This document shows positions 1-17,700 of a stretch of 64,000 nucleotides of DNA, piece by piece (position 1 is the stretch's first letter; every line of letters begins with the position of its first letter). The position numbers were made by a program, and so were the translations under genes. The stretch lies in contig MVQI01000060.1 of assembly GCA_002067795.1 (NCBI GenBank), positions 1-64,000 on the forward strand, given 5' to 3'. The notes beneath the pieces are model-generated. The model worked only from the letters and a program-made list of their open reading frames with translations. It ran no database searches and was not told the DNA's origin. Source of the DNA: Methanosaeta sp. PtaB.Bin039 (lineage in GTDB: Archaea > Halobacteriota > Methanosarcinia > Methanotrichales > Methanotrichaceae).

Positions 1-145
1 TCTGTCCTTTCGGGAGCTGCAAAGCGAGATGAAGCTAAGCCCCTCGCAGTTCACGAGAGTGGTAAATAGCCTGGACAAGGGGACTTTCGAGGTCAGGAGG
101 TGCCCCGGCGCGAAGAGAGGAGAGAAGATGGTGGTGCTGAAGTGA
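1..145 (+). CDS. C-terminal end of a probable winged-helix DNA-binding protein (partial)
   Basis: An open frame runs in from the left edge and ends at TGA 143-145. It encodes 47 residues with a helix-turn-helix look (FRELQSEMKLSPSQFTRVVN) followed by a basic wing-like segment. The GC content resembles the host and contrasts with the AT-rich sequence that begins just after the stop. Function beyond probable DNA binding cannot be assigned because the N-terminus is outside the window. Confidence 0.5.
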   Translation, partial: LSFRELQSEMKLSPSQFTRVVNSLDKGTFEVRRCPGAKRGEKMVVLK

Positions 146-362: not shown

Positions 363-398
363 GTTTTTACATTTCATGTAAAAACTTAAATTTATATA
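363..398 (+). promoter_or_regulatory. Palindromic operator and TATA box of the RiPP locus
   Basis: A perfect inverted repeat (arms GTTTTTACAT 363-372 and ATGTAAAAAC 376-385, spacer TTC) lies five bases before a TATA box, TTTATATA at 391-398. This places the palindrome over the BRE position, where an activator or repressor could control TFB/TBP binding. Transcription would start near 420-424, about 40 bases before the precursor ATG. A near-identical module recurs at 11596-11632, which supports a real regulatory element. Confidence 0.7.
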
Positions 399-461
399 GG
401 AGTGTGATAATAGGATAGAGTGGCGGAGTAAATCCCGACCAAGGAATGGAGTTTGGTATAA

Positions 462-602
462 ATGGAAGAGTTTTCAAAAGCGAACCAAGACGGAGGAACA
501 CCTGAGGCATGCTACTGTAATTGGTGTAGCTGTTCAGGTGGCAACGCCCAGAGTGTCTTCTATGGGCAGGACTACCAAACCAATCCATCCAAATATTGGT
601 AA
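462..602 (+). CDS. Candidate RiPP precursor peptide, 46 residues, CxCxxCxC core
   Basis: This small gene has a Shine-Dalgarno-like GGAG at 448-451, ATG at 462 directly after an in-frame TAA, and a TAA stop at 600-602. The product has an acidic, Gly-containing N-terminus (residues 1-16, with GG at 11-12), then the cluster CYCNWCSC (Cys17, 19, 22, 24), SGGN, and an aromatic tail containing VFYGQDYQ and ending KYW. It lies between the locus promoter and two radical SAM/SPASM genes, an exporter and a protease, the standard place for a modified-peptide precursor. A hairpin spans its stop codon. Predicted modifications are thioether links at the cysteines and perhaps aromatic cross-links; both are inference. 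I recognise no named family. The leader/core boundary is unknown; cleavage after GG12 is one option. Confidence 0.75.
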   Translation: MEEFSKANQDGGTPEACYCNWCSCSGGNAQSVFYGQDYQTNPSKYW

Positions 603-610
603 GGTAGTCC
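569..610 (+). promoter_or_regulatory. Hairpin spanning the precursor stop codon
   Basis: Outer arms GGACTACC (569-576) and GGTAGTCC (603-610) and inner arms ACCAAT (579-584) and ATTGGT (595-600) pair perfectly around a symmetric AA/AA internal loop. That gives 14 base pairs over a 10-base loop, with the TAA stop inside the structure. It could protect the precursor mRNA 3' end, attenuate read-through, or slow release at the stop. Confidence 0.6.
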
Positions 611-619
611 AAGTAAAGA

Positions 620-654
620 CTGGAGCACCAAAACAACGAGTACAGGTGCTCCAG
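620..654 (+). promoter_or_regulatory. Second hairpin between precursor and maturase genes
   Basis: Perfect 10-bp arms CTGGAGCACC (620-629) and GGTGCTCCAG (645-654) enclose a 15-base loop. There is no U-tract, so this looks like a processing or attenuation element rather than a simple terminator. Such elements commonly keep a peptide precursor transcript in excess over its modifying enzymes. A TATA-like ATATAATAATATA follows at about 660-674 and could give an extra promoter. Confidence 0.6.
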
Positions 655-699
655 CACCTATATAATAATATATTAGGATAAATTAAAGATTGTGATAAT

Positions 700-2196
700 A
701 TGCTAGAATTTGAAACTTCAACAGGAAATTTGTATGCATGGGATGATGAAGTAGGCTTATTTATTCCATTTTCCCCAGCTATGAGATCCGTTTTAGACGT
801 GCTCTCAAATCATGATTCAGTCACTAAAGAGAAGGTCATGTGTTTATTAAAAGAAAATATTGAGAGAGAGGAAATCTCATTTTGCTACGATTGGATTCGA
901 AAGTGGAATAAAATAAAAACCCAAATTCAAAAGACTAAGAATATTCAAACGTTTACTGAATCGGATATTAGATATTCGGTGTTAAAATTTGGTCTATTGC
1001 GTCTAACATTATGCATCACAGAAGATTGCAATTTCATGTGTAAATATTGCGCCTATTCCGATTTCTACAAGTACACAAGGAGGCCTTCTGATAAATATAT
1101 GAAGTTTTCTATCGCAAAAAAGGCAATAGATTACTATTTCTCATTACTTGATGAGGGAAAGAGATACAATCCACTAAGAAGGCCAGCAATAGGATTTTAT
1201 GGGGGAGAACCCTTATTAAATTTTAAATTAATTAAAGATCTAGTAGATTACATAGAAAATGAATACAAGGATCATAAAACGATATACACGATTACCACAA
1301 ATGGCAGTTTACTAGATAAAGAAAAAGCGAATTGGCTTATGAAATTTAAGTTTATCATAGACGTTAGTCTGGACGGGCCTGAAGAGGAGCATGATAGACT
1401 TAGAGTCTATACTAATGGGAATGGAACCTTCAGAGACGTTATGAAAAATGTTAGTTCAATAATGATAGAAGGCTATCAAGAAATCGGATGCCTCCCAGTT
1501 TTCGATTGGAGAAGCAATCTATTCAAGCGGGAGGAATTCTTTAATAGACAAGACGTTCCGCGTGTACAAGGAGCGTTCCCAGTTGACGATGTAGAAGGAT
1601 GTTCCTATTATCAGCAATTTACAGAGGAGGAGTTTCTTGCATTTATGGAACAGTTCGAAAGAGCCAGAAATTTCTATTTCATGAATTTAGATCACCATAG
1701 ACATAGGAAAAAGACAACACTCTTTGATGACCTAATTGGTCAAGCTCCAAGAAGAGCTCTCTTTAGGAGCATTTCAATTTATCCACATCATCCGTTAATG
1801 CCATTTACAGGTGCATGTATACCAGGAAGGAAGATATTCGTAGATGTCAACGGATTTTACCATCTATGTGAGAAAGTGAATAGCGATTTTCCTATTGGCA
1901 ACGTAAATGAAGGATTAAATTTTAAGAAGATCTATAAACTAATAGTTAATTATAATAGTTGTATGGACAAATGTCCGGAATGTGGTGTCGCGCGAAGATG
2001 CAATTTTTGCTATAAGTCGTTCGCAACCGATAAGGATTTCCTACACTCTTCAACCGTGTGCAAAGAAGTTGAATCTAATATGAAAAGATCATTTATTGAA
2101 GCGTTTGAAATAGCTGAAAAGTTCCCAGAATTTATAGACGATTCTAATATTAAATATAATAATATTAGAAAATATTATAATTCGTATGGTGAATGA
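700..2196 (+). CDS. Radical SAM/SPASM peptide maturase with N-terminal PqqD-like domain
   Basis: A 498-residue enzyme expected to modify the adjacent precursor. Residues 1-90 resemble a PqqD-like peptide recognition element. The radical SAM cluster motif is Cys110, Cys114, Cys117, followed by GGEP (168-171) and SLDGP. The C-terminal SPASM/twitch region carries Cys373, 390, 421, 425, 428, 434, 437 and 454, enough for two auxiliary Fe-S clusters. From memory the core resembles the clostridial Cys-rich-peptide maturases (CcpM type); this needs a search. Enzymes of this architecture install Cys-to-alpha, beta or gamma-carbon thioethers or other C-C/C-X links. The stop overlaps the next start as ATGA (2193-2196), so translation is coupled. 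Confidence 0.88.
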   Translation: MLEFETSTGNLYAWDDEVGLFIPFSPAMRSVLDVLSNHDSVTKEKVMCLLKENIEREEISFCYDWIRKWNKIKTQIQKTKNIQTFTESDIRYSVLKFGLLRLTLCITEDCNFMCKYCAYSDFYKYTRRPSDKYMKFSIAKKAIDYYFSLLDEGKRYNPLRRPAIGFYGGEPLLNFKLIKDLVDYIENEYKDHKTIYTITTNGSLLDKEKANWLMKFKFIIDVSLDGPEEEHDRLRVYTNGNGTFRDVMKNVSSIMIEGYQEIGCLPVFDWRSNLFKREEFFNRQDVPRVQGAFPVDDVEGCSYYQQFTEEEFLAFMEQFERARNFYFMNLDHHRHRKKTTLFDDLIGQAPRRALFRSISIYPHHPLMPFTGACIPGRKIFVDVNGFYHLCEKVNSDFPIGNVNEGLNFKKIYKLIVNYNSCMDKCPECGVARRCNFCYKSFATDKDFLHSSTVCKEVESNMKRSFIEAFEIAEKFPEFIDDSNIKYNNIRKYYNSYGE

Positions 2197-3341
2197 AAAT
2201 GTATTTCAGACTAAATCCAGAGTGCTATTTAATAAGAGGGAAAAAATGCGGAGCGATTTATGATTTAATTGATGAAAAAATATATGCGCTAAATCAATAT
2301 GAGACAAGAATTGTGACATCTAGCGAAAATAATGACGTAGTAAATGAAGATAATACGTATCTTACCGAATTGGAAAAGCTTCGAATTGGGAGGTTTTACA
2401 AAAAGAAAATATATGTACAAAAATTGAGGGCGGGTTCGCCTATCAGAGAAATTCAAAGCGAGCCACCAGCATTCCATAGAGCCTTTCTTGAAATAAACAA
2501 TATATGTAATAGAAACTGCTGGTTCTGCGGGTATAATGGTGTAAAAAGAAGTCTAGGATGTATAGGATGCAATAGATGGAATGAAAACGGAGAATCATTA
2601 AGCTTAGAAAAGTGGAAAAGAATAATTAATGACCTAAGCGATTTGGATTGTAAGGATATTTTTATAATTGGCGGAGATTTGACATTGGTATGGGCTAAGA
2701 CAGTCAATATAGTAAATTATGCAAATAGCAAATTCAGGAATATTTATATCACACTTCATCACCAAAGCCTATCCTTAGATATAGCAAATTATTTAAATAA
2801 TAAAGCCAATTTAATCATACAAACTGATAATATTAATGTACCTCAATATAACCAATCGTCCGTAATTATGGTTATGAATCCCGACGATTGGACAGATTTC
2901 TACGACATGGAGAGTAAAGGAATAAAGATAGATTTTGTGATCGATGATGTCGAATCGCTATCAAATAATCTGCCAATAATTTCCAAAAAGAAAATATTAC
3001 CCGTGAATGTATACAAGTTTATAGATAATATAGAATATCACCCTTGTCTGGGACATACATTGGCCATCTGCCATAATGGCAACGTAATTCCTTGCCCTTT
3101 AATGAGAAGCCATAGATTTGGCAATGTGAGGAATGGAGAACTCTATCAAGTTTTCGAGAAAAATTGGAAAGAAATAGAGAAAATCTGGAAATTAAATTTA
3201 GATAAAATAGAGAAATGTAAATGTTGTGAGTTTAGGTATGCTTGTACTGATTGCAGAGCATTAGAAGAAAATTTAACAGGAAAATTAAGTGGCAAGAGGC
3301 TTTGCGGCTACAATCCAATAGAAGGAGAATGGCTAAAATGA
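2193..3341 (+). CDS. Second radical SAM/SPASM protein of the RiPP locus
   Basis: A 382-residue protein. Residues 1-45 form a second PqqD-like N-terminus; the 4Fe-4S motif is Cys105, Cys109, Cys112, and an extra CIGC pair (123-126) follows at once. The usual GGEP is replaced by IIGGDLT, an altered SAM-binding motif. A SPASM-like C-terminus contains PCLGH, AICHNGNVIPCP, CKCCEF and ACTDC. Two radical SAM enzymes for one small peptide suggest two chemically different modifications or a helper role. It starts inside the previous stop and ends in ATGA with the exporter gene. Substrate and chemistry are unknown. Confidence 0.82.
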   Translation: MKMYFRLNPECYLIRGKKCGAIYDLIDEKIYALNQYETRIVTSSENNDVVNEDNTYLTELEKLRIGRFYKKKIYVQKLRAGSPIREIQSEPPAFHRAFLEINNICNRNCWFCGYNGVKRSLGCIGCNRWNENGESLSLEKWKRIINDLSDLDCKDIFIIGGDLTLVWAKTVNIVNYANSKFRNIYITLHHQSLSLDIANYLNNKANLIIQTDNINVPQYNQSSVIMVMNPDDWTDFYDMESKGIKIDFVIDDVESLSNNLPIISKKKILPVNVYKFIDNIEYHPCLGHTLAICHNGNVIPCPLMRSHRFGNVRNGELYQVFEKNWKEIEKIWKLNLDKIEKCKCCEFRYACTDCRALEENLTGKLSGKRLCGYNPIEGEWLK

Positions 3342-5029
3342 AGGATAAATATAGGTATTTTATTACTAGATTTGTTAGACCATACGCCCCAACAATGATA
3401 TTTCTCATTATTTTGAGCTTTATGGGCACCATCTTTTCATTTATCACCCCATTGCTCGCCAAATCATTAGTAGATGACGTTTTTATTGACAGAAGGACAG
3501 AGATGTTTGGCTATATCCTCTTGGGAACTACAGGAACATACATCATTTCATCGATTTCAGCTTACATCTCAGGTTATAAAAAAGGGACCCTGGACCTAGT
3601 CATTTTCAATGATGTCGCTAAAGAAGTATTTAGCGCAATTCAACTTGCACCTATAGAGAAAATTCAAGATATGAAAGTAGGAGACCTACTGAGTCGCATT
3701 GTTGTTAATACACGATCTGCCATAAATATGTTTACTTATATCATTCCTGAATTTTCTATTAGCGTTATACGTATTATTGCACCCATTACAATAATGCTAT
3801 TTTTGAATGTACAACTTACATTAATTGTAGTGCTACCTGCAATGTTATTCATCTTACCGATTTCATTCTTTGGAAGACGATTGGAAAATACACAAAGAAT
3901 ATCATTGATAAAGACCGCATCGATATACTCATTTATCAAAGAAAATCTATCTATGATACTCTTAATAAAGGCGTTCTCGCTTGAGAAGTGGTCTCGGGAT
4001 AAGTTCGATAAAGAGATGAAAGGATACTTTGAAGCATCTATAGACTATACAAAAAACTCCTCTATGAACAGCTCTGTAAGTTCTTTGATGAACGGAATAC
4101 CCATGATTCTGCTTATCTTGTTTGGCGGAAACATGGTAATTCAGGGATCATTGACCATAGGCACATTTACAGCTTTCATAAGCTATGTCGGCCTCTTCTT
4201 TGGACCTCTATCACAACTTGCCTTCCTATGGTCCTTTTATAAAAGTTCTCTTCCAGCCTTCGACAGAATTAGCAACATATTAAGTCTGGAAAATGACGAG
4301 GGTGGCAAAGAAGAGCTAGAACTAAAAGATGGCACAGTAGAATTTAATGATGTGTGGTTTTCTTATGATAATAGGCGGATCCTCTGCGGTTTAAGTGCCA
4401 CCTTTGAAAAAGGCCTGAATTATATAGTGGGTGATAATGGCAGTGGAAAGTCCACAATCCTTAAATTAATTAGTTCCATTTATTCATTGGATAAGGGGCA
4501 GATCAAGATAGATGGGCAAGATATCTCAAAGATTAGGAAAGATAGTCTTAGGAAGAACATCTCGATTATTTTTTCGAATCCATATTTATTTGATGGCTCC
4601 ATCTACGAGAATATTCATATTGGCAATCTTACCGCGTCAGAAGAGAACATCATTCATGCTGCAAAGAAGGTCGGCGCACACGAATTCATAATTAATCTAC
4701 CCAATGGCTATCAAACTCAGGTTGGAGAGAGTGGCCTAAAACTATCAACCGGAGAGAAGCAGAAAATCGCCCTAGCAAGAGCGATCTTGAAGAACGCTCC
4801 AATATTACTGCTCGATGAGGTAACTAGGTCTATAGATATAGATTCTAGAAGATCAATAAATAAAATTATCAAAGGCTTTAAAAGCGAAAAAACGATTATT
4901 ATAATTACCCATAATGCAAATGAGATTGAACCTGACAGCAATATCATTTTCCTAGGCCAAGGAAACACACTAGATGATGATTTCTACATTTCGTTCGATA
5001 AAGAAATGTTAAAGGCGGTGCCTTCATGA
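3338..5029 (+). CDS. ABC exporter (fused membrane and ATPase domains) for the RiPP product
   Basis: I choose ATG 3338, giving 563 residues: it overlaps the upstream stop as ATGA and has AAGGAG at 3322-3327 with ideal spacing; in-frame starts at 3251 and 3329 are less likely. The N-terminal half is a six-helix type I exporter domain. The ATPase has Walker A GDNGSGKST, a non-standard signature LSTGE instead of LSGGQ, and Walker B LLLDEVT with the catalytic Glu. There is no N-terminal C39 peptidase, so leader removal must be done elsewhere, presumably by the following subtilase. Likely exports the modified peptide as a homodimer. Confidence 0.88.
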   Translation: MKDKYRYFITRFVRPYAPTMIFLIILSFMGTIFSFITPLLAKSLVDDVFIDRRTEMFGYILLGTTGTYIISSISAYISGYKKGTLDLVIFNDVAKEVFSAIQLAPIEKIQDMKVGDLLSRIVVNTRSAINMFTYIIPEFSISVIRIIAPITIMLFLNVQLTLIVVLPAMLFILPISFFGRRLENTQRISLIKTASIYSFIKENLSMILLIKAFSLEKWSRDKFDKEMKGYFEASIDYTKNSSMNSSVSSLMNGIPMILLILFGGNMVIQGSLTIGTFTAFISYVGLFFGPLSQLAFLWSFYKSSLPAFDRISNILSLENDEGGKEELELKDGTVEFNDVWFSYDNRRILCGLSATFEKGLNYIVGDNGSGKSTILKLISSIYSLDKGQIKIDGQDISKIRKDSLRKNISIIFSNPYLFDGSIYENIHIGNLTASEENIIHAAKKVGAHEFIINLPNGYQTQVGESGLKLSTGEKQKIALARAILKNAPILLLDEVTRSIDIDSRRSINKIIKGFKSEKTIIIITHNANEIEPDSNIIFLGQGNTLDDDFYISFDKEMLKAVPS

Positions 5030-8000
5030 GTACAGGAGAATATATTCTTATCATATCTCTAGTAGTAACGATAATAGTGTCACCCTCAAATGCGATAGGA
5101 GGAGGAAATCCTGCAATTTACAATATATATAAAGGGCTAGAAAATTTCGGAATCGAAGATGCTTGGGACATGGGCTACACCGGCAAGGGTGTGAAAATAG
5201 CTTTAATGGATAGCGGATTAGACTTTGCCACTCCGGACCTTATTGGTTCTCAAGCTCGAATTGAAAACGTCAGTTCTCCTTACTATGGCTGGCCTATCGT
5301 TATAGATCCAGATTCGTTATCCGCATTTCAGCAAGATACCCCTATCTACCGTTCACAGTATGCAAATACTAGCTCTCTGGATACAAAAGGCTATCATGTT
5401 ACTGGGACCAGCAAAAGCGGCATTTACCACATTGGAGATCATCCAGATGGGCACCTAGCTCAGTTTTACGGCTCGCCGGTGAAGGTCCTTTTAGTAGACG
5501 AGAAGACCTCTGGCGTATATGATACTGTATACGTAGATTTAAATAATAATTTCGATTTCAGAGATGATAAGCCCTGCAGAAAAGGGGATGAGATCTCCTA
5601 CTGGGACAGAGACAATGATGGCTATCCGGACGAATCTGGTGGTATGATTTACTTTATAGCTGATGGAAAGACACCACTTCCATTCTCTAAGATGCTCTAC
5701 GGAGAGAAAGCAAAGATACCGAAAAATGGAGAACTGGTTGCTTTTCATTTTGATGACTGGAATCACGGTACAATGTGTGCATCTATCATAGTTGCTCAGG
5801 GAAAACATGTGAAGGGAATTGCCTATGATGCCAGAATTGTACCAGTTCGATTATTTGGAGCAAATGATAAGCTCCTCTGTCTCCTTGCCTCGATTGGGTA
5901 TGATGGAATTCCAAATACGGGCGATGAAGCAGATATCATAAGCCGAAGTGGAGGCATTAGGAACGTGTTCAACAAAGGTGTCGATGAAGGTTCTGCATTC
6001 TTAGAATACCTAACCACCAGAGTCTCGCCCTCTACAACCCTAGTGTATGCGAATGGAAACGACGGATCTGGATACGGCACCTGCAATCCCCCATCTGGAG
6101 GACGCATAATTAATGTTGGTGGAACTTATGATATGTGGTGGAACGGCTCACGTCATAATGGAGATATAGCCTGTTTCTCCTCACGAGGTCCTAACGCCCT
6201 TGGACAGATCGAACCGGATGTGCTGGCTACCAGTGATCGTACACCAGAGGCGTTACCCCTATGGATAACCCATAATGGCAAGGCTTCATGGGATGGATTC
6301 GGCGGCGGCACCAGCGGTTCAACGCCACATGCAGCTGCGGTTATTGCGCTAATCTACCAGGCCTACAAAGATGCATATGGGAGATTCCCGACATCTGAGA
6401 AGGCCAGGGACATTCTCTTGTCCTCGGCCACAGATCTAGGTGAAGAAGTCTTCGCTCAAGGTTCCGGCATAATAAATGCCAAGAGAGCTGTTGAAATAGC
6501 ATCCGGAAAATATGGAATTTTAGTTGAACCTGCGTTGCTCATCACATCGCCTATTGAGGCAGGATCTATTGCGAGGTTTAATTTCACAATATCAGATTAT
6601 TCTGGAGAAGCGATAGATCTGAAGCCTCAAATATTAATAAAAGATATGAAGAAAGAAGTATCATTGAAACCAGAGGATAAGGGCATTTTTTTCACTATTC
6701 CCAAAGAATTGCTCGATTGCGATCTATTAAGAATCTCATCCTACTATGAAAGAGATGCCAAAAATACCAAGCTAGAGAAAGAAGAGGGATATGATCTCTA
6801 TCTGTATAACTGGAACGATACGAATAGAGATGAAAAAGCTCAAGACGAAGAATTGGAAGTAATAGCAGGCCCTTTCTTTGAGTGGGGCTATGGATTTACA
6901 TCTGAAGTAAGAATGCATAATCCTGCAAAACGAATGAATGATGGGATTAAAGCTGGTTTGAAAGCAAGAGGCGAAATCAAAAAGAAAGAGATACGAGTTG
7001 TAATTGAGACATATAAATGGATACCGTGGAACATCGAATTGGAACAAAATGGCAATCAGGTCTACGTTTCAATATCAACAACCAACGCAACAGGATTATA
7101 TCAGGGAAAGATATCTTTAGAAAGCAATGCTGGAATACAATGCATTCCAATATCCTTCTCTACGTATATAAATGACGAAATCAAAATAAAGACCACAAAA
7201 GAGATCTATGAAAACAATAAGATCTACGGAAGGTTTGAAGGAGACGGAGCAAGCGGCTGGGATTCGAGGATCTATCCGCTATATCATTACGGCCACGATT
7301 TAGCAACCATTGAGGTCTCTTGGGAGGATCCCAGTACAGATATAGATGTCTATCTCTATGGAGAGACTGTTTTTGACGCTTCAAATATTTGGAAATACTC
7401 AACTAAGCCTCCAATCGATCTTCCTAAATTGGGAGCCTTCAAAGAGAATGGACATAGTCTGAGACTATCTGGAAATGTCTTTGTTGTTCAAGGTGATATG
7501 GTTCGTGGTGGTCCTAGCTACAATGCGTTTTATACATCTACTGGTAAGCAGAAAGAGGTAATAATCGGCGAACTAACTGAGGGGCTGAATCTTATTCTCT
7601 TACGTCAAGTGGTCTCCAATGGAAATACGTATGGAGAAAATATAACTATAAGAATCTATGCCACGCCTTTTAGTCCGACAGACCGGAAAGCAACGGCTGG
7701 AGATATCGTGAATCTAAATCTAACAGGAGTAGACGGCATAATAGGCTTTTCCACTGGAGAAGAGATAAGAAACGAACATGGCGCAAAGACCTTCAAAGCA
7801 AAGAGCGGCGATGTGATATTGATCCATTCCAAAGAGGCCAGCTATTTCCCACGGATATATTTTGATTCAAATGAAAATGAGAAGATCGATTTTAATACTG
7901 ATGAGCTGATATTCGGAGAACAGAGGTATAATGATATCAATCAATCTTACACAGATATCATACCAATCGATAAAATGGGAACCTATTTCCTTTCTGGAAA

Positions 8001-8793
8001 TTGCGAATTCTATCATCTTAAGGATCGATATAAAACCAGCATCAATGAATCCATGACGATCAAAGCACCAGAGCAGTCCGGAACCTACCTTGGCATTGCT
8101 GAGAAGGACACAATCCCGATCCCAATCCCCGTCACGCTGCTGGTTGAGCCTGGAGATCCTGTGTCCATTGGTCTGAAGTTCGATAACATCACCGAGCGCA
8201 ACCAATCATTCCAGGTCGAGCTGGAGCTGCAGGACAGGTTCGGAAATCTGGTCGAGAAGGCTGCCGAGGCCACGATAGAATTCGGAGGCGTCTCTCAAAA
8301 GGTGAGGCTGGTCAATGGATTGGGCTTCATCAACCTGACAGCTCCCCCCAGTGATGGGATATACCAGATCGTGACGAAAAGCCGCTACGGCGTAACCGAA
8401 ACTGAGATCAAAATCGCCGAGATGGCGCCCCGGAAAACCGGGGACTTCAACATCAGTTCGGACATGGCAGCTCAGGTATCGGATGAGACACCACAGATGG
8501 CGACAAAGCAGCCAAAGGAGACGGCTGAGCTCCCCGAGAAGGTCCAATCGGTCTCGATCAAATCAACTGATGGCAACATCAGCTTGTCGTGGCCACAGTC
8601 GGAAGGCGCCGATCGGTATAATGTGTACAGGCTGAAGTACGGCAACTTCGAGAAGGCTGCAGAGGTAAACGTGACCGAATATGCAATGGCGTCAGAGTTC
8701 TGGAAGAGCTATACATTTCGGGTCTCAGCTGTAAGCAGCGAAGGAGACGAGGGAGAGCCAAGCGATCCGGTTGCCATTGTCGTGACGCCATGA
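5026..8793 (+). CDS. Secreted subtilisin-like protease, 1255 residues, with FnIII C-terminus
   Basis: The N-terminus has a hydrophobic signal segment (about 6-24). The S8 triad is intact: Asp62 (ALMDSGLD), His247 (NHGTM), Ser430 (GGTSGSTPH), with a candidate oxyanion Asn345 (ANGN). A long insert between Asp and His contains Asp-rich loops (DLNNNFDFRDD, WDRDNDGYPDE) that look Ca-binding. Beta-rich domains follow and residues about 1166-1255 form a fibronectin type III domain. It overlaps the exporter stop by ATGA, so it is part of the operon and is the best candidate to cleave the leader outside the membrane, or to confer immunity. Composition changes from AT-rich to host-like GC at about 8090, suggesting a mosaic gene. 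Confidence 0.85.
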   Translation: MSTGEYILIISLVVTIIVSPSNAIGGGNPAIYNIYKGLENFGIEDAWDMGYTGKGVKIALMDSGLDFATPDLIGSQARIENVSSPYYGWPIVIDPDSLSAFQQDTPIYRSQYANTSSLDTKGYHVTGTSKSGIYHIGDHPDGHLAQFYGSPVKVLLVDEKTSGVYDTVYVDLNNNFDFRDDKPCRKGDEISYWDRDNDGYPDESGGMIYFIADGKTPLPFSKMLYGEKAKIPKNGELVAFHFDDWNHGTMCASIIVAQGKHVKGIAYDARIVPVRLFGANDKLLCLLASIGYDGIPNTGDEADIISRSGGIRNVFNKGVDEGSAFLEYLTTRVSPSTTLVYANGNDGSGYGTCNPPSGGRIINVGGTYDMWWNGSRHNGDIACFSSRGPNALGQIEPDVLATSDRTPEALPLWITHNGKASWDGFGGGTSGSTPHAAAVIALIYQAYKDAYGRFPTSEKARDILLSSATDLGEEVFAQGSGIINAKRAVEIASGKYGILVEPALLITSPIEAGSIARFNFTISDYSGEAIDLKPQILIKDMKKEVSLKPEDKGIFFTIPKELLDCDLLRISSYYERDAKNTKLEKEEGYDLYLYNWNDTNRDEKAQDEELEVIAGPFFEWGYGFTSEVRMHNPAKRMNDGIKAGLKARGEIKKKEIRVVIETYKWIPWNIELEQNGNQVYVSISTTNATGLYQGKISLESNAGIQCIPISFSTYINDEIKIKTTKEIYENNKIYGRFEGDGASGWDSRIYPLYHYGHDLATIEVSWEDPSTDIDVYLYGETVFDASNIWKYSTKPPIDLPKLGAFKENGHSLRLSGNVFVVQGDMVRGGPSYNAFYTSTGKQKEVIIGELTEGLNLILLRQVVSNGNTYGENITIRIYATPFSPTDRKATAGDIVNLNLTGVDGIIGFSTGEEIRNEHGAKTFKAKSGDVILIHSKEASYFPRIYFDSNENEKIDFNTDELIFGEQRYNDINQSYTDIIPIDKMGTYFLSGNCEFYHLKDRYKTSINESMTIKAPEQSGTYLGIAEKDTIPIPIPVTLLVEPGDPVSIGLKFDNITERNQSFQVELELQDRFGNLVEKAAEATIEFGGVSQKVRLVNGLGFINLTAPPSDGIYQIVTKSRYGVTETEIKIAEMAPRKTGDFNISSDMAAQVSDETPQMATKQPKETAELPEKVQSVSIKSTDGNISLSWPQSEGADRYNVYRLKYGNFEKAAEVNVTEYAMASEFWKSYTFRVSAVSSEGDEGEPSDPVAIVVTP

Positions 8794-10608: not shown

Positions 10609-11307
10609 TTACAGCTCTTTTGCCTTGGCAAAGGCCACCTCAGCCTCGGAGGTGCGTCCAAGTGTCTTCAATATCTCGGCTTCTGCATTCCATACGCCCG
10701 CATTTGTAGGGTCGATCTCGATAGACTTCTTATAGGCCAAAACAGCCTCGTCGTACTTGCCAAGATGCCCGGCAAGAAGCGTTCCTCTGGCCTCCCAGAT
10801 AAAGGCGTCCTTGGGGTTTTGGGCAGATGCCTCATCGAAAGTCTCCATCATCTCGTCATAATCGCCCCTCTCAGCGAGGAAGTTCGCCTTGTCGATCCAA
10901 AGGCTCACTTCAGCGGGATTCATTCGGATGGCCCAATCATATGCCGCCAGAGCTTCCTCGTCTCTTCCCAGAGCTGCCAGAGAGCGAGCCTTGCCTGATA
11001 TCGCCCCGGTCAACCGAGGATTATGCTCCAGTGCTTTGTTGAAAGATGCCAGGGCATTTTCATGCCGATCCAGAGAATATAGAGCATCTCCTCTTGCCTG
11101 CCAGGCCGCGGCGTTGGTTGGATCGATCTTTACGGCTTTATCGAAGGCCAAAAAGGCCTCTTCCAGCGACTTCTGGCCATCATTCAGCCAAAAGTCTGCT
11201 GTGTTCTCCTGGGCGAGCGCACCAGAACAGAGCAGGGCAATCCCGACCATGCATAGGGCAAGACTGCTCCTCGCCCGAAATCTGGAAGTGCGACTTCCAG
11301 ATAGCAT
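10609..11307 (-). CDS. Secreted TPR protein
   Basis: Starting at ATG 11307 (a TTG 30 bases upstream is less likely) the product is 232 residues: a basic N-terminus, a hydrophobic signal segment ending ALAQ near residue 33, then about five tetratricopeptide repeats (AFDKAVKIDPTNAAAWQARG, ALASFNKALEHNPRL, AYDWAIRMNPAEVSL and so on). TPR domains bind proteins; this one would act outside the membrane. It is transcribed alone, towards the regulator gene. No specific partner is evident. Confidence 0.75.
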   Translation of the reverse strand: MLSGSRTSRFRARSSLALCMVGIALLCSGALAQENTADFWLNDGQKSLEEAFLAFDKAVKIDPTNAAAWQARGDALYSLDRHENALASFNKALEHNPRLTGAISGKARSLAALGRDEEALAAYDWAIRMNPAEVSLWIDKANFLAERGDYDEMMETFDEASAQNPKDAFIWEARGTLLAGHLGKYDEAVLAYKKSIEIDPTNAGVWNAEAEILKTLGRTSEAEVAFAKAKEL

Positions 11308-11595
11308 GTCCCCCACTATCCAAAATATCTCTCTCAATTATGTTCACGTCCTTTTTCATTCTGTGCCTGTTTCGCGATGCCAATGGCATGCAAACATTAG
11401 ACAAACTTATTGATATAAGTAATTTTCTATATGATTATTTTATATTACAAAAAAGCTATATGACATATCAAAACATGGAATTTAAACAGTATCTCAGCCA
11501 CTTGCCCCAGCCTGCACACCACCCCAGCCCATATGTCAGACAACAAATTGAATTTATACAGAATTATGCCTTTAGGCAGACTATATAACGGTATC

Positions 11596-11632
11596 GTTTT
11601 TACATTTCACGTAAAAACTTAGATAATTATAT
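11596..11632 (+). promoter_or_regulatory. Second copy of the RiPP operator-TATA module
   Basis: GTTTTTACAT, spacer TTC, then ACGTAAAAAC (one mismatch to the perfect palindrome at 363-385), followed six bases later by the TATA-like AATTATAT (11625-11632). Spacing matches the first copy. No precursor gene follows; the sequence runs into the degenerate protease end. Confidence 0.6.
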
Positions 11633-11719
11633 GATAAGATACGACCTGCAAGTCCGGTTATCGGAAAGTCGAACCTCTGCGCGAAATGTCGTTGAAGTAC
11701 ATCAAAGGTAGGTGACACC

Positions 11720-11890
11720 TGGGAGTTCTCAAAAAGAGCTATACCTTCGGGATCTCGGCTATGAGCAGCGAAGTAGATGAGGGAGAGCCGAGCGTATCCG
11801 GTAGCGATAGTGGTAACGTCGTAACTGATGGTCATAGTCTCGAATGGCTGATGTGTCCATCGGCCCGGCCCTCAAAATCGTGATTCGACT
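11720..11890 (+). pseudogene. Remnant of the protease FnIII end, copy 2 of the duplicated segment
   Basis: Translates in one frame to KSYTFGISAMSSEVDEGEPS, clearly homologous to the end of the subtilase (KSYTFRVSAVSSEGDEGEPS), then loses the original stop through indels. The last 40 bases (11851-11890) are identical to 8820-8859. Joined to the promoter palindrome at 11596, it looks like a copy of the locus with its interior (about 8 kb) deleted. Confidence 0.65.
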
Positions 11891-14018: not shown

Positions 14019-14768
14019 ATGTCATATCCCGAAAAGACTGTCGAGGCAGTAATGGCCTATGTGAATGCAACAACCTGGGAGCATAAGAAGAACATTGTAA
14101 GAGCCAATCGCGGGGAGTTGCTGACCGATACCGCGGACAGTGTATTGAACAAATTAATAGAGGATTATAGAGACGACGAGGAAGCTGCAAAAATTTTACA
14201 GATGTATCGTGATCTTCTCTCTGCTTGCCGCGAAGATGGAATCGACCTGGCATTTCACGGAGTCGTCCCACTGGACATCCCTATTAATGAAGTAATCGAT
14301 TACATTAACGCCAAAGAGTGGAGCGATGCCAAGCAAATGGTAATCGACAAACGAGATATCTTATTGACTGAAGAAGCCGACCAGGTCTTTTCGCTTCTGC
14401 TTCAAAGGCATCGAGACAATCCAGACCTGATCGATAAGATAAAGGAAAGTCGTGAGCTTCTGGCCCGCTGCCGGCGAGAGGGCATCGATGCGGCCTTTTC
14501 GGATCGCTGCATTGAGGTGCCGGAGAATGTGGCGAATGCTCTATGGGGATATATCAACGCTCCAACATGGAATGAGGCTGAGCAAATCATAAGGGCAAAT
14601 CAAGACATACTATTCACCGATGTGGCTCAAAACTTCTTTTCGATGCTGCTCAGGTTGGCGGAGACGAAAAATGATAGGGGAATGCTTTCTCTGATGCTTT
14701 CCCGTCGGGAAGCTCTCCTGCGCGCCAAAAAGAAGGGAATCGATGATGCCTTTAGGGATTATCGATGA
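14019..14768 (+). CDS. Three-repeat helical protein of the CHAT cassette
   Basis: 249 residues made of three copies of a unit of about 75 residues with the pattern YINA.TW..A..I...R.ILLT..A followed by a helix and RELLARCRREGIDAAF. The same unit forms the N-terminus of the next protein, so this gene looks like a free-standing adaptor or repeat array that pairs with the TPR-CHAT protein through like-like contacts (inference). No catalytic motif is visible. The stop overlaps the next start (ATGA, 14765-14768), giving translational coupling. Confidence 0.75.
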   Translation: MSYPEKTVEAVMAYVNATTWEHKKNIVRANRGELLTDTADSVLNKLIEDYRDDEEAAKILQMYRDLLSACREDGIDLAFHGVVPLDIPINEVIDYINAKEWSDAKQMVIDKRDILLTEEADQVFSLLLQRHRDNPDLIDKIKESRELLARCRREGIDAAFSDRCIEVPENVANALWGYINAPTWNEAEQIIRANQDILFTDVAQNFFSMLLRLAETKNDRGMLSLMLSRREALLRAKKKGIDDAFRDYR

Positions 14769-17700
14769 CAGAGAACTCGAAAACAGTCCATGATGCCGTA
14801 ACGTCGTTTATCAGGAGTGGTTCATGGGAGGACGCTGCGAGAATCGTTGAATCTCATGGATATGAATTGCTTACTGATGATGCTGATACGGTCATTGCCG
14901 ATGAGATAAGGATCGGGGAATACAAGCACGAATATGATGCAGTAAGCATGCTGCAACTTAAGAGGTGGTTCTTAATCCAGTGCCGCCGAGAAGGGCCAAA
15001 ATACGGACTTAAATCGATAACGGATTTGGGAAACCTGATGGAATTGGAGATATCTCTTGAAAAGCCAGATGAAATGTCATATAAGATAGAAATATGTCAC
15101 AAGATACTTGATCTGATTGATCGCGATATATTGACAAAGATCTGGGGCTGTATCCACGAGGTTCTGGGAGAAAGCTACGCAAAGAACAAGCATAATGACA
15201 TTGCTTCAAATCTTGAACATGCCATAGAGCATTATAATTTGGCCCTGGAAGCCATTACCTCGGAGATTTACCCAGACCTCTGGGCCACAACCCAGATGCA
15301 TTTGGGAATTGCCTATATACAAAGAATAGAAGGCCAGCGTGCAGATAATCTCGAAAATGCAATTGAGCATTTGAAGTTAGCACTGAGTATATTCAGCCGC
15401 GACGTTAATCCTGACGGTTGGTCTATGGTCCAATCCAATTTATCTACAGCCTATTTATACCGCATTTATGGCAATCGCAGCGATAATCTCGAGCGGGCAA
15501 TTAGACACAGTCAACTGGGACTGGAATTAACTGATGATGATGGGGATTCGTCGCTATGGTCTGATCTGCATTTGAATTTGGGCCTTGCATATTCATCAAG
15601 AATCAAGGGAGACAGAGCTGATAACCTGGAACAGGCCTTGGTGCATTATCATCTCACCAAGTATGATCCCCATAAAAGCCCAGAAAATTGGGCAAAATTG
15701 AAGAATAATTTGGCATTCGTCTTGATGGAAAGGGCAAGAGAAGGCCTGTCCGATAGCCTGGATCTCGCCATCGATCAGCTCAATTTGGCACTTCAGATGG
15801 AAAGCTTATCGTATTTCAAGGACATCTGGGCCAGTACTCATAATAATTTAGGAGGTGCACTCCTGCAAAAGGATAGCCTGGCTAACCCAGAAGAGGCCAT
15901 CAAGCATTTCGAGGCGGCTTCGACCGTATACACCCGCTCTAATAATGCCGAAAAATGGGCAATGGTTCAGAGCAATCTCGCTGCTGCATATATGAATTCC
16001 GCTGCCGCAGATCCTGAAACTAACGAAAAGGCAATTGAGCACTTTCAGAATGCACTCGATGTGTATACAAGAGAAGCTTTTCCATTGAGATGGGCCATGG
16101 TACATAATAACCTGGGTCGTCTCTATGCCCAGTGCAAAAATGATAATGCTAATGAAAATATGAATCGGTCTAAAGATCATTTTGAGCAAGCTCTAACAGT
16201 ATTCACCACCGATCAGCTGCCTTCCGAACGACTTAAAACCATTAATGAACTTGCTGCGCTCTATTTCAAGAATAGGATTTGGGATAAGGCACTAGAAGCG
16301 TATGATGAAGCCATCACAATCGGAGATGCTCTATTCGAGGCGGCTTATACAGAGAAAGGTCGGCAGATGGAGATACGAAAGACATCTGAGATCTACGCAA
16401 ATTCTGCCTACTGCTTATTGAAACTGGGAAATCGTGAAGAGGCCATCTTAAGATTGGAGAAGGGAAAAACTCGACAACTGGCAAATGCACTGGCGCTAAG
16501 CGACATTCATTTGGCCAATCTGTCTGAAGATCAAGAGATGCAAATACTCAGTTCTCGACGCAGAGTTCGTGAACTAGAAGCCGAAATGCGCGAATCGATC
16601 GACACGCCGAATCGCCGGCAAGACGCTGAACTTGGCAAAGCATTAAGAGAAGAGCTTGCTGATCTCAATTATCTCATTGAGCATTATCGAGGCAAAGATC
16701 CGAATTTCCTGCATGAAGGTCTCGAGCTGCCTGAGATCTTAGAGCTCATACCCGAAGGTGGTGCATTGGTGATGCCTTTTTCCACCCAACATGGCGGCGC
16801 AGCGTTTGTACTGCCATCGGGTATCGCATCCATTGCGCCAGATACTGTAATTATGATAGACAAATTTACCGATTCGTCATTGCAGGATATCCTTATAGGC
16901 AGCAATAAGCCAGGCTGGCTGAATTCCTATATCGCCTGGCAAAATAGGGGCGTACAGGAAGAGTTTGAAAGAGCCATGGATGAGCTGGCGGCTCATCTTT
17001 GGAGCGTCCTGATGAGTCCAATTTACGAGCGCCTTGAAGAGATTCATCTGAACAGAGGTGCCCCATTGATACTGGTGCCTTTAGGTGCGCTTGGCCTATT
17101 GCCATTGCATGCCGCTTGGTATCAGAAGGACGGAGAAAAGCGCACCATCCTCGACGACTATAGCGTCTCATATGCTCCAAGCGCGTATGTGCTGAAGATC
17201 AGCAGACAACGGATGCAGGATTCAAGGAGAAATGCACGCACTTTGTTGGATATAGTAAACCCTACTGCCGATCTGCCATTCGCGACCATAGAGGGAAAGG
17301 CCGTTGCCGATTTGTTTAAAGACGCGGATAAGCATTTGATTATTGAAAGCGAAGCAAATGCAGGGGCGGTTAAGGAACATGGACCCCATTACGCTTATCT
17401 TCACTTCTCTGGCCATGGGAGGTATAACTGGGACAAAGCCGAAAGATCGGCAATTATCTTGGCCGATGGAGTCGAACTGACCTTGGCCGAGATCATGTCA
17501 CCTGATTTCGACTTTAACATGACGCGGCTGGTGACCCTCTCCGCTTGCGAGACAGGATTCACCGAGTTCCTGGAGCTGCCTAATGAATATATCGGCTTGC
17601 CAGCGGGATTTCTGCAAGCTGGCGCCCCGGCTGTAGTGAGCAGCCTGTGGGCAGTCAACGACTTGTCCACTGCACTTCTAATGGAGCATTTCTACAATAA

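Follow-up and report, generated by a model that had tools for sequence, protein, structure and literature searches.

In a Methanothrix-family archaeon, the start of contig C60 carries a short open reading frame (ORF) with a dense cluster of cysteine codons, followed by two radical S-adenosylmethionine (rSAM) genes, an ATP-binding cassette (ABC) exporter gene and a subtilase gene. This arrangement raises the question of whether the ORF encodes a precursor peptide and, if so, what the neighboring enzymes would make of it. The window analyzed here is the first 64 kb of this contig. Rereading of the sequence confirmed the coordinates and the gene content of the initial annotation (a precursor gene, two rSAM/SPASM genes, an exporter gene and a subtilase gene). 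The 4-nucleotide (nt) ATGA overlaps that it had assigned to the whole cassette were found between rSAM1, rSAM2, the ABC gene and the subtilase gene, whereas the precursor gene stands 97 nt before rSAM1, with a hairpin inside this gap. The ORF list and Pfam revealed no further modifying gene in the operon. Sequence comparison indicates that the ORF is a real peptide gene, and the operon is likely to produce a thioether-bridged ribosomally synthesized and post-translationally modified peptide (RiPP) of the sactipeptide kind.

The precursor gene (positions 462 to 602, plus strand) was recognized by sequence reading, a selection test and its recurrence upstream of rSAM1. Its translation is the 46-residue peptide MEEFSKANQDGGTPEACYCNWCSCSGGNAQSVFYGQDYQTNPSKYW, which comprises a short acidic leader (approximately residues 1 to 16) and the core ACYCNWCSC-SGG...YW, with four N-terminal cysteines and a tail without cysteine. 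The nearest cassette, L027, belongs to the same family and is located on contig JAUWQF010000006.1 of Methanothrix sp. CSMAG_2495 (G012). The peptides encoded by the two cassettes are 78% identical, and comparison of their reading frames revealed a proportion of nonsynonymous differences (pN) of 0.13 and of synonymous differences (pS) of 0.81. Third codon positions hold 24 of the 36 nucleotide differences, and the flanks are only 51 to 56% identical.

The comparison was then extended to twelve independent cassettes whose upstream DNA could be read, namely, those of the window, L009 (contig C53 of the same genome), L027, L028 and L029 (both G015), L030 (G027), L032, L033, L035, L036, L038 and L039; L031 and L034 were left out as duplicates of L027 and L030. 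An ORF was counted as a precursor if it started with ATG, had 38 to 70 codons, contained at least four cysteines within 14 residues and lay no more than 500 nt from rSAM1. Such an ORF was present upstream of rSAM1 in 10 of the 12 cassettes, compared with 2 of 148 other upstream regions (158 regions minus the 10 holding cassette precursors); dinucleotide shuffling produced it in 3 of 1,100 sequences. One of the two background positives lies within an rSAM1 gene and the other upstream of another radical SAM gene. The exceptions are L009, where the ME[EV]F start is kept and the cluster has three cysteines only, and L030, where a divergent 45-residue candidate with a good ribosome site lies on the other strand. 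The precursors of the Methanothrix family have the common layout MEVFxGE...ACxC..C.C.G. In the window and most cassettes, the cysteines of the core are confined to its N-terminal half and the tail has none; L039 and L030 have one extra C-terminal cysteine.

The eleven cassettes other than that of the window, in which a similar small ORF accompanies the same two enzymes, come from Methanothrix-family, ANME-1 (anaerobic methanotrophic archaea)-like, Methanomicrobiales and gut archaea. As judged from these alignments and counts, this rSAM pair is accompanied in many cassettes by a small cysteine-cluster peptide gene under selection, and the conservation of precursor gene and modifying enzyme as a pair points to a RiPP system. 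The hidden cysteine-cluster precursor proposed by the initial annotation is upheld by the purifying selection on its frame and by its recurrence in independent cassettes. Homologous loci lacking the small ORF, or not keeping its frame, had been named as findings that would speak against this proposal; the homologous loci were instead found to have the small ORF in the corresponding position, with its frame under purifying selection.

No NCBIfam or Pfam model matched the precursor above its cutoff, in agreement with the initial annotation, which had recognized no named precursor family in it. The HuaA model (NF037972) gave no match for the precursors of the window, L028, L032, L033, L035, L036, L038 and L039, while the Ruminococcus albus positive control scored 50 bits. 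Assignment of the L033 precursor to FibroRumin (17.3 versus 45 bits) and of the window precursor to a zinc finger (16.6 versus 27 bits) was rejected.

rSAM1 (positions 700 to 2196, plus strand) was classified as a radical SAM/SPASM peptide maturase from NCBIfam, its fold model and its motifs. It carries the radical SAM motif CNFMCKYC (CxxxCxxC) at residue 110 and a seven-cysteine SPASM motif, Cx11Gx4Cx34Cx2Cx5Cx2Cx16C, at residue 373. The top NCBIfam models are CcpM, RumMC sactipeptide, QhpD and PapB, each scoring far below its cutoff. CcpM (TIGR04068) was the best match (7e-64; 216.4 bits, cutoff 500), with lower scores for PapB (NF047865; 129.1 bits, cutoff 340), QhpD (TIGR03906; 127.8 bits, cutoff 453) and SCIFF (TIGR03974; 104 bits, cutoff 425). 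Membership of rSAM1 in the CcpM, quinohemoprotein amine dehydrogenase (QHNDH) and SCIFF/PapB families was rejected because these scores lie below the curated cutoffs. A fold model of rSAM1, generated with eight archaeal homologues (predicted local distance difference test [pLDDT] score of 77), placed three strands and then three helices in residues 1 to 79, which supports an N terminus resembling an RRE (RiPP recognition element) of PqqD layout. The best match in the Protein Data Bank was the thioether synthase CteB, both by profile (E value of 3.8e-32) and by fold (E value of 5e-16, whole-chain alignment). According to the model, rSAM1 combines the features of a sactipeptide maturase, namely, the rSAM/SPASM architecture, an RRE and the cysteine motif for two auxiliary clusters.

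The second radical SAM/SPASM protein, rSAM2 (positions 2193 to 3341, plus strand; conserved start ATG at 2199), was identified by NCBIfam and motifs. It has an intact CNRNCWFC motif (CxxxCxxC) and a seven-cysteine SPASM motif, which is complete in 11 of the 11 rSAM2 copies examined and in R. albus. The N terminus and the SPASM region resemble those of GwsS (TIGR04193), the match being best in the C-terminal two thirds of the protein. Membership in GwsS was rejected; the score was 95.9 bits against a cutoff of 175, and the cassette has no ATP-grasp gene, the partner found in grasp-with-SPASM systems. The Elizabethkingia GwsS examined lacks the CxxxCxxC motif that rSAM2 possesses.

Among 72,556 plasmid records, the two rSAM proteins independently found the same best match, the 16-kb plasmid pRUMAL03 of R. 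albus 7. Identity to the R. albus homologue was 31.7% over 79% for rSAM1 (6e-57) and 27.6% over 97% for rSAM2 (4e-34), the latter being the sole match covering most of the query. The R. albus cluster belongs to the huazacin (thuricin Z) family and likewise has the order precursors-rSAM1-rSAM2-ABC, with all Fe-S cysteines conserved in the maturases; the two homologous rSAM proteins of the huazacin family (NF037972) therefore have counterparts in the window. Huazacin contains four nested bridges from cysteine to alpha-carbon, from Cys4-His38 to Cys16-Asp26, and its maturases ThzC and ThzD are each able to act alone (PMC8172795). The window precursor differs in lying outside the HuaA model and in its denser cysteines, CxCxxCxC versus a wider spacing. 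The window cassette is further set apart by its archaeal host, secreted S8 subtilase, operator and untranslated region (UTR) hairpins, and the R. albus cluster by a CPBP protease and the presence of two copies of the precursor.

Other known systems share single features with the locus. Two adjoining rSAM genes are also present in the thuricin CD cluster, and rSAM1 shows the canonical RRE layout. Compared by published spacing, rSAM1 has the seven-cysteine motif of TrnC, Cx11Gx4Cx36Cx2Cx5Cx2Cx14C (PMC12093266), with two gaps that differ by 2 residues; the window has one precursor, whereas thuricin CD has two. CcpM is the best NCBIfam match of rSAM1, yet the window precursor is matched by no model. 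Haloarchaeal lanthipeptides are archaeal, thioether-bridged RiPPs with proven products (PMC12144867), but they are made by LanM lanthipeptide synthases, in contrast to the radical SAM enzymes of the window.

A core with its cysteines up front and a cysteine-free tail matches the layout of nested-hairpin sactipeptides (PMC8172795), and the closeness of the maturases to a known sactipeptide family makes the term RiPP locus well supported. Of the earlier claim of an undescribed RiPP locus, the RiPP assignment stands; a wholly unknown kind does not, as the maturases are nearest to the sactipeptide family. In the proposed pathway, the short acidic leader, which starts with ME[EV]F..., would be bound by the RRE of rSAM1, and rSAM1 would work jointly with rSAM2, as TrnC does with TrnD. 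Hydrogen would be abstracted from backbone alpha-carbons of the cysteine-free C-terminal tail, and these carbons would be joined to Cys17, Cys19, Cys22 and Cys24, giving up to four nested bridges with a loss of 2 Da each. The ABC exporter, which has no peptidase domain, would carry the bridged peptide out of the cell; in the Methanothrix-family cassettes, the secreted subtilase would cut the leader or trim the product. A palindromic operator and the 5'-UTR hairpin would set expression, and the hairpin after the precursor gene would lower maturase expression relative to that of the peptide. A role of the product between cells, as an antimicrobial or a signal, is probable.

Several observations weigh against the sactipeptide assignment or parts of this pathway. 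rSAM1 is far below the cutoff of every named maturase family, and since models of ranthipeptide and QhpD-type enzymes give it a score as well, linkage to the alpha- or the beta-carbon is not distinguishable from sequence. rSAM2 has a full seven-cysteine SPASM motif, in contrast to the reduced three-cysteine SPASM motif of TrnD. Its structure model is poor (pLDDT of 53) and does not resolve the N-terminal fold, so no RRE is claimed for rSAM2; the PqqD-like N termini previously ascribed to both maturases are retained for rSAM1, with its three strands and three helices. The cores of distant cassettes are not alignable outside the cysteine cluster. Finally, the S8 gene is missing from the non-Methanothrix cassettes, and the subtilase may therefore not be a general leader protease.

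The alternative that survives best, although we regard it as unlikely, is a ranthipeptide, in which the thioethers would go to the beta- or gamma-carbon, as with PapB and CteB, or the bridges would be interleaved. The PapB and SCIFF models do score with rSAM1 (129.1 and 104 bits), and its best structural match, CteB, is a maturase of SCIFF-type peptides. However, the precursor has neither the six-cysteine spacing nor the Asp acceptors of the PapA/SCIFF type, and the cysteine cluster, the cysteine-free tail and the two-rSAM layout fit sactipeptides better (PMC8172795). It is considerably less probable that the cysteines stay free in the product, with the cluster binding a metal or the enzymes performing other chemistry (epimerization, C-C cyclophane formation or decarboxylation). 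A cluster as dense as CxCxxCxC could bind metal, and radical SAM/SPASM enzymes are chemically diverse, but the nearest enzymes by sequence and fold form thioethers, the nearest cluster is of the huazacin type and the operon holds no other modifying gene. Protein cross-linking on a small enzyme subunit, as in the QHNDH system (QhpD rSAM, QhpE subtilisin and QhpF ABC protein), would involve a similar mix of rSAM, S8, ABC and small cysteine-containing proteins; the score of 127.8 bits with TIGR03906 is far below the 453-bit cutoff, the cassette lacks dehydrogenase subunits, the small protein matches no Pfam subunit, and with two rSAM genes and an optional S8 gene this explanation is very improbable. 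A chance origin of the ORF at positions 462 to 602, with the true substrate encoded at another place, has a negligible probability: short ORFs are common, and L009 (three cysteines) and L030 (opposite strand) deviate, but the frame is under selection, recurs in independent cassettes, shares the ME[EV]F...AC layout and has RNA hairpins on both sides.

The sactipeptide assignment can be extended to a bolder proposal, which we put forward only tentatively. The locus might represent a class of archaeal sactipeptides whose single CxCxxCxC precursor is modified by an obligate pair of enzymes, rSAM1 with its RRE and a GwsS-like, catalytically complete rSAM2. The bulged-A hairpin of the 5' UTR would control this system as well as PatG-domain units in genome G015, and the product would serve in warfare or signaling among methanogens and methane oxidizers.

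The ABC exporter gene (positions 3338 to 5029, plus strand; start within ATGA, alternative start at 3329) encodes fused membrane and ATPase domains, as identified by Pfam (ABC_membrane and ABC_tran), NCBIfam and motifs (Walker A, LSxGE and LLLDE). Pfam detected no peptidase domain in this protein. The secreted S8 subtilase (positions 5026 to 8793, plus strand) has a long C-terminal region with an fn3-like end and was identified by Pfam (Peptidase_S8) and by the motifs D62, H247 and GTSGSTPHA. Domains and motifs of both proteins correspond to the peptidase-less exporter and secreted subtilase described previously. With all S8 matches of the genome listed, S8 is the last gene in both of its own cassettes, and in L027 and L028 it follows the ABC gene. 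The subtilase is a candidate leader or maturation protease.

Analysis of the upstream region by sequence reading revealed a perfect 9+3+9 palindrome, TTTTTACAT-TTC-ATGTAAAAA, at positions 364 to 384 (plus strand), a putative operator. A degenerate second copy is located at positions 11594 to 11632, and L028 and L009 have similar, less perfect inverted repeats ahead of their TATA boxes. The palindrome is followed by the motif CTTAAATTTATATAGG (positions 385 to 400, plus strand), a putative promoter resembling a transcription factor B recognition element (BRE) and TATA box. This motif precedes the precursors of L009, where it is identical, and of L028, where it has one change.

The 5' UTR contains a hairpin (CG-helix, loop, CG-A-CYA) at positions 419 to 443 (plus strand), in which the bulged A is invariant. 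This hairpin was found at 7 loci and is matched by the covariance model R1, which replaced a strict pattern that had missed the window's own copy. Across the 7 cassettes, 90% of the cells were paired and 3 pairs had changed on both sides, compared with at most 56% paired in the slid control. In 50 family genomes, the strongest R1 matches were restricted to cassettes, three PatG-domain units in G015 and a relic in G020; matches below approximately 24 bits elsewhere are likely due to chance. A second hairpin, which resembles an attenuator or terminator, follows the precursor gene at positions 620 to 654 (plus strand; z = -5.0). Hairpins of unrelated sequence occur just after the precursor in seven cassettes (window, L027, L028, L029, L009, L033 and L039; z = -3.0 to -6.2), and this recurrence suggests attenuation that would hold the peptide above the enzymes. 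Rfam had no match at the locus, and hence neither hairpin is a described RNA.

The C-terminal end of a coiled-coil/helix-turn-helix (HTH)-like protein, cut by the contig start, is encoded at positions 2 to 145 (plus strand). Genes of this type adjoin several cassettes, including the two of the window's own genome, next to which three of its four copies lie, and the protein is a candidate regulator. The PatG-domain units of G015 are located in L078 (G015:C1:2979000-2998000), where the minus strand encodes three near-identical 303-residue proteins (7217 to 8128, 10708 to 11619 and 14322 to 15233). Each gene has the bulged-A 5' hairpin and the tail of an ABC protein upstream, and all three proteins have a cysteine-containing N terminus. 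Scanning of one copy of the 303-residue protein (L028, 1322 to 2233) revealed PatG_D/PatG_C domains. These units, situated between the G015 peptide cassettes, may form another peptide system under the same control.

The cassette is patchily distributed over methanogens and ANME-1-like methane oxidizers. Full-length matches were found in 4 of 238 genomes of the class and in 2 of 199 Methanomicrobiales genomes. A single-sequence search of GTDB contigs with rSAM1 found nothing, a profile search with rSAM2 found nine loci, and viral contigs yielded none. Because the R. albus rows lie on very long tree branches, no direction of transfer is claimed. The window also contains a relic of a second cassette (positions 11594 to 11890, plus strand), in which the promoter copy at 11594 to 11632 is followed by the 3' end and flank of an S8 gene at 11734 to 11890 (78% identity over 157 nt; E value of 2e-30), everything between them having been deleted. 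This gutted cassette, together with the patchy distribution, fits an accessory trait that is rapidly lost.

Archaeal sactipeptide and ranthipeptide clusters have been predicted in bulk by genome mining, and the archaeal RiPPs with proven products in the literature searched are haloarchaeal lanthipeptides (PMC12144867). No description of the window cassette was found in the searchable literature, most subscription papers being outside its reach. The kind is known and has so far been characterized only in bacteria; an archaeal version with two rSAM enzymes and a precursor of this family is new to the searchable literature. With its short precursor, the locus is a concrete and compact archaeal example that lends itself to testing, and on it the generality of the two-enzyme logic proven for thuricin CD can be examined. 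In rSAM2, it provides a relative with an intact radical SAM motif of a family whose examined member has none. An antimicrobial activity of the product, if present, would be relevant to competition within methane-cycling communities.

Further observations concern the state of single cassettes. In L079 (G020:C29:30000-34660), a 5' hairpin is fused to the tail of an exporter gene at approximately 4321 to 4558; as read from the sequence, this is the relic of a lost cassette in another genus of the Methanothrix family. The L029 cassette (G015) has a transposase-like gene (6559 to 7809) in the exporter's place after rSAM2 and is therefore probably disrupted. In L038, from a horse-gut archaeon, both rSAM genes contain frameshifts (2155 to 4726). 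TAG readthrough was rejected as an explanation, since the frame stays closed, which makes frameshifts by error or decay more likely. L039 was binned as Nanosynbacter and L032 as "bacterium," and both cassettes are nearly archaeal-like. L039 shares an upstream ABC tail with Methanothrix-family loci, and L032 is close to L037 of ANME-1; both are probably mis-binned archaeal contigs. A further copy of the cassette promoter precedes an unrelated ORF in L009 (286 to 318) and is perhaps another relic or a regulon member. Finally, a small cysteine-cluster ORF ending in ...ARQAGCSQCEMGCTGCMGCSNTSKVSVAVVQTE precedes a radical SAM gene of another type in a further member of the family (L019, G010:C10:42628 region) and possibly represents a second archaeal RiPP family.

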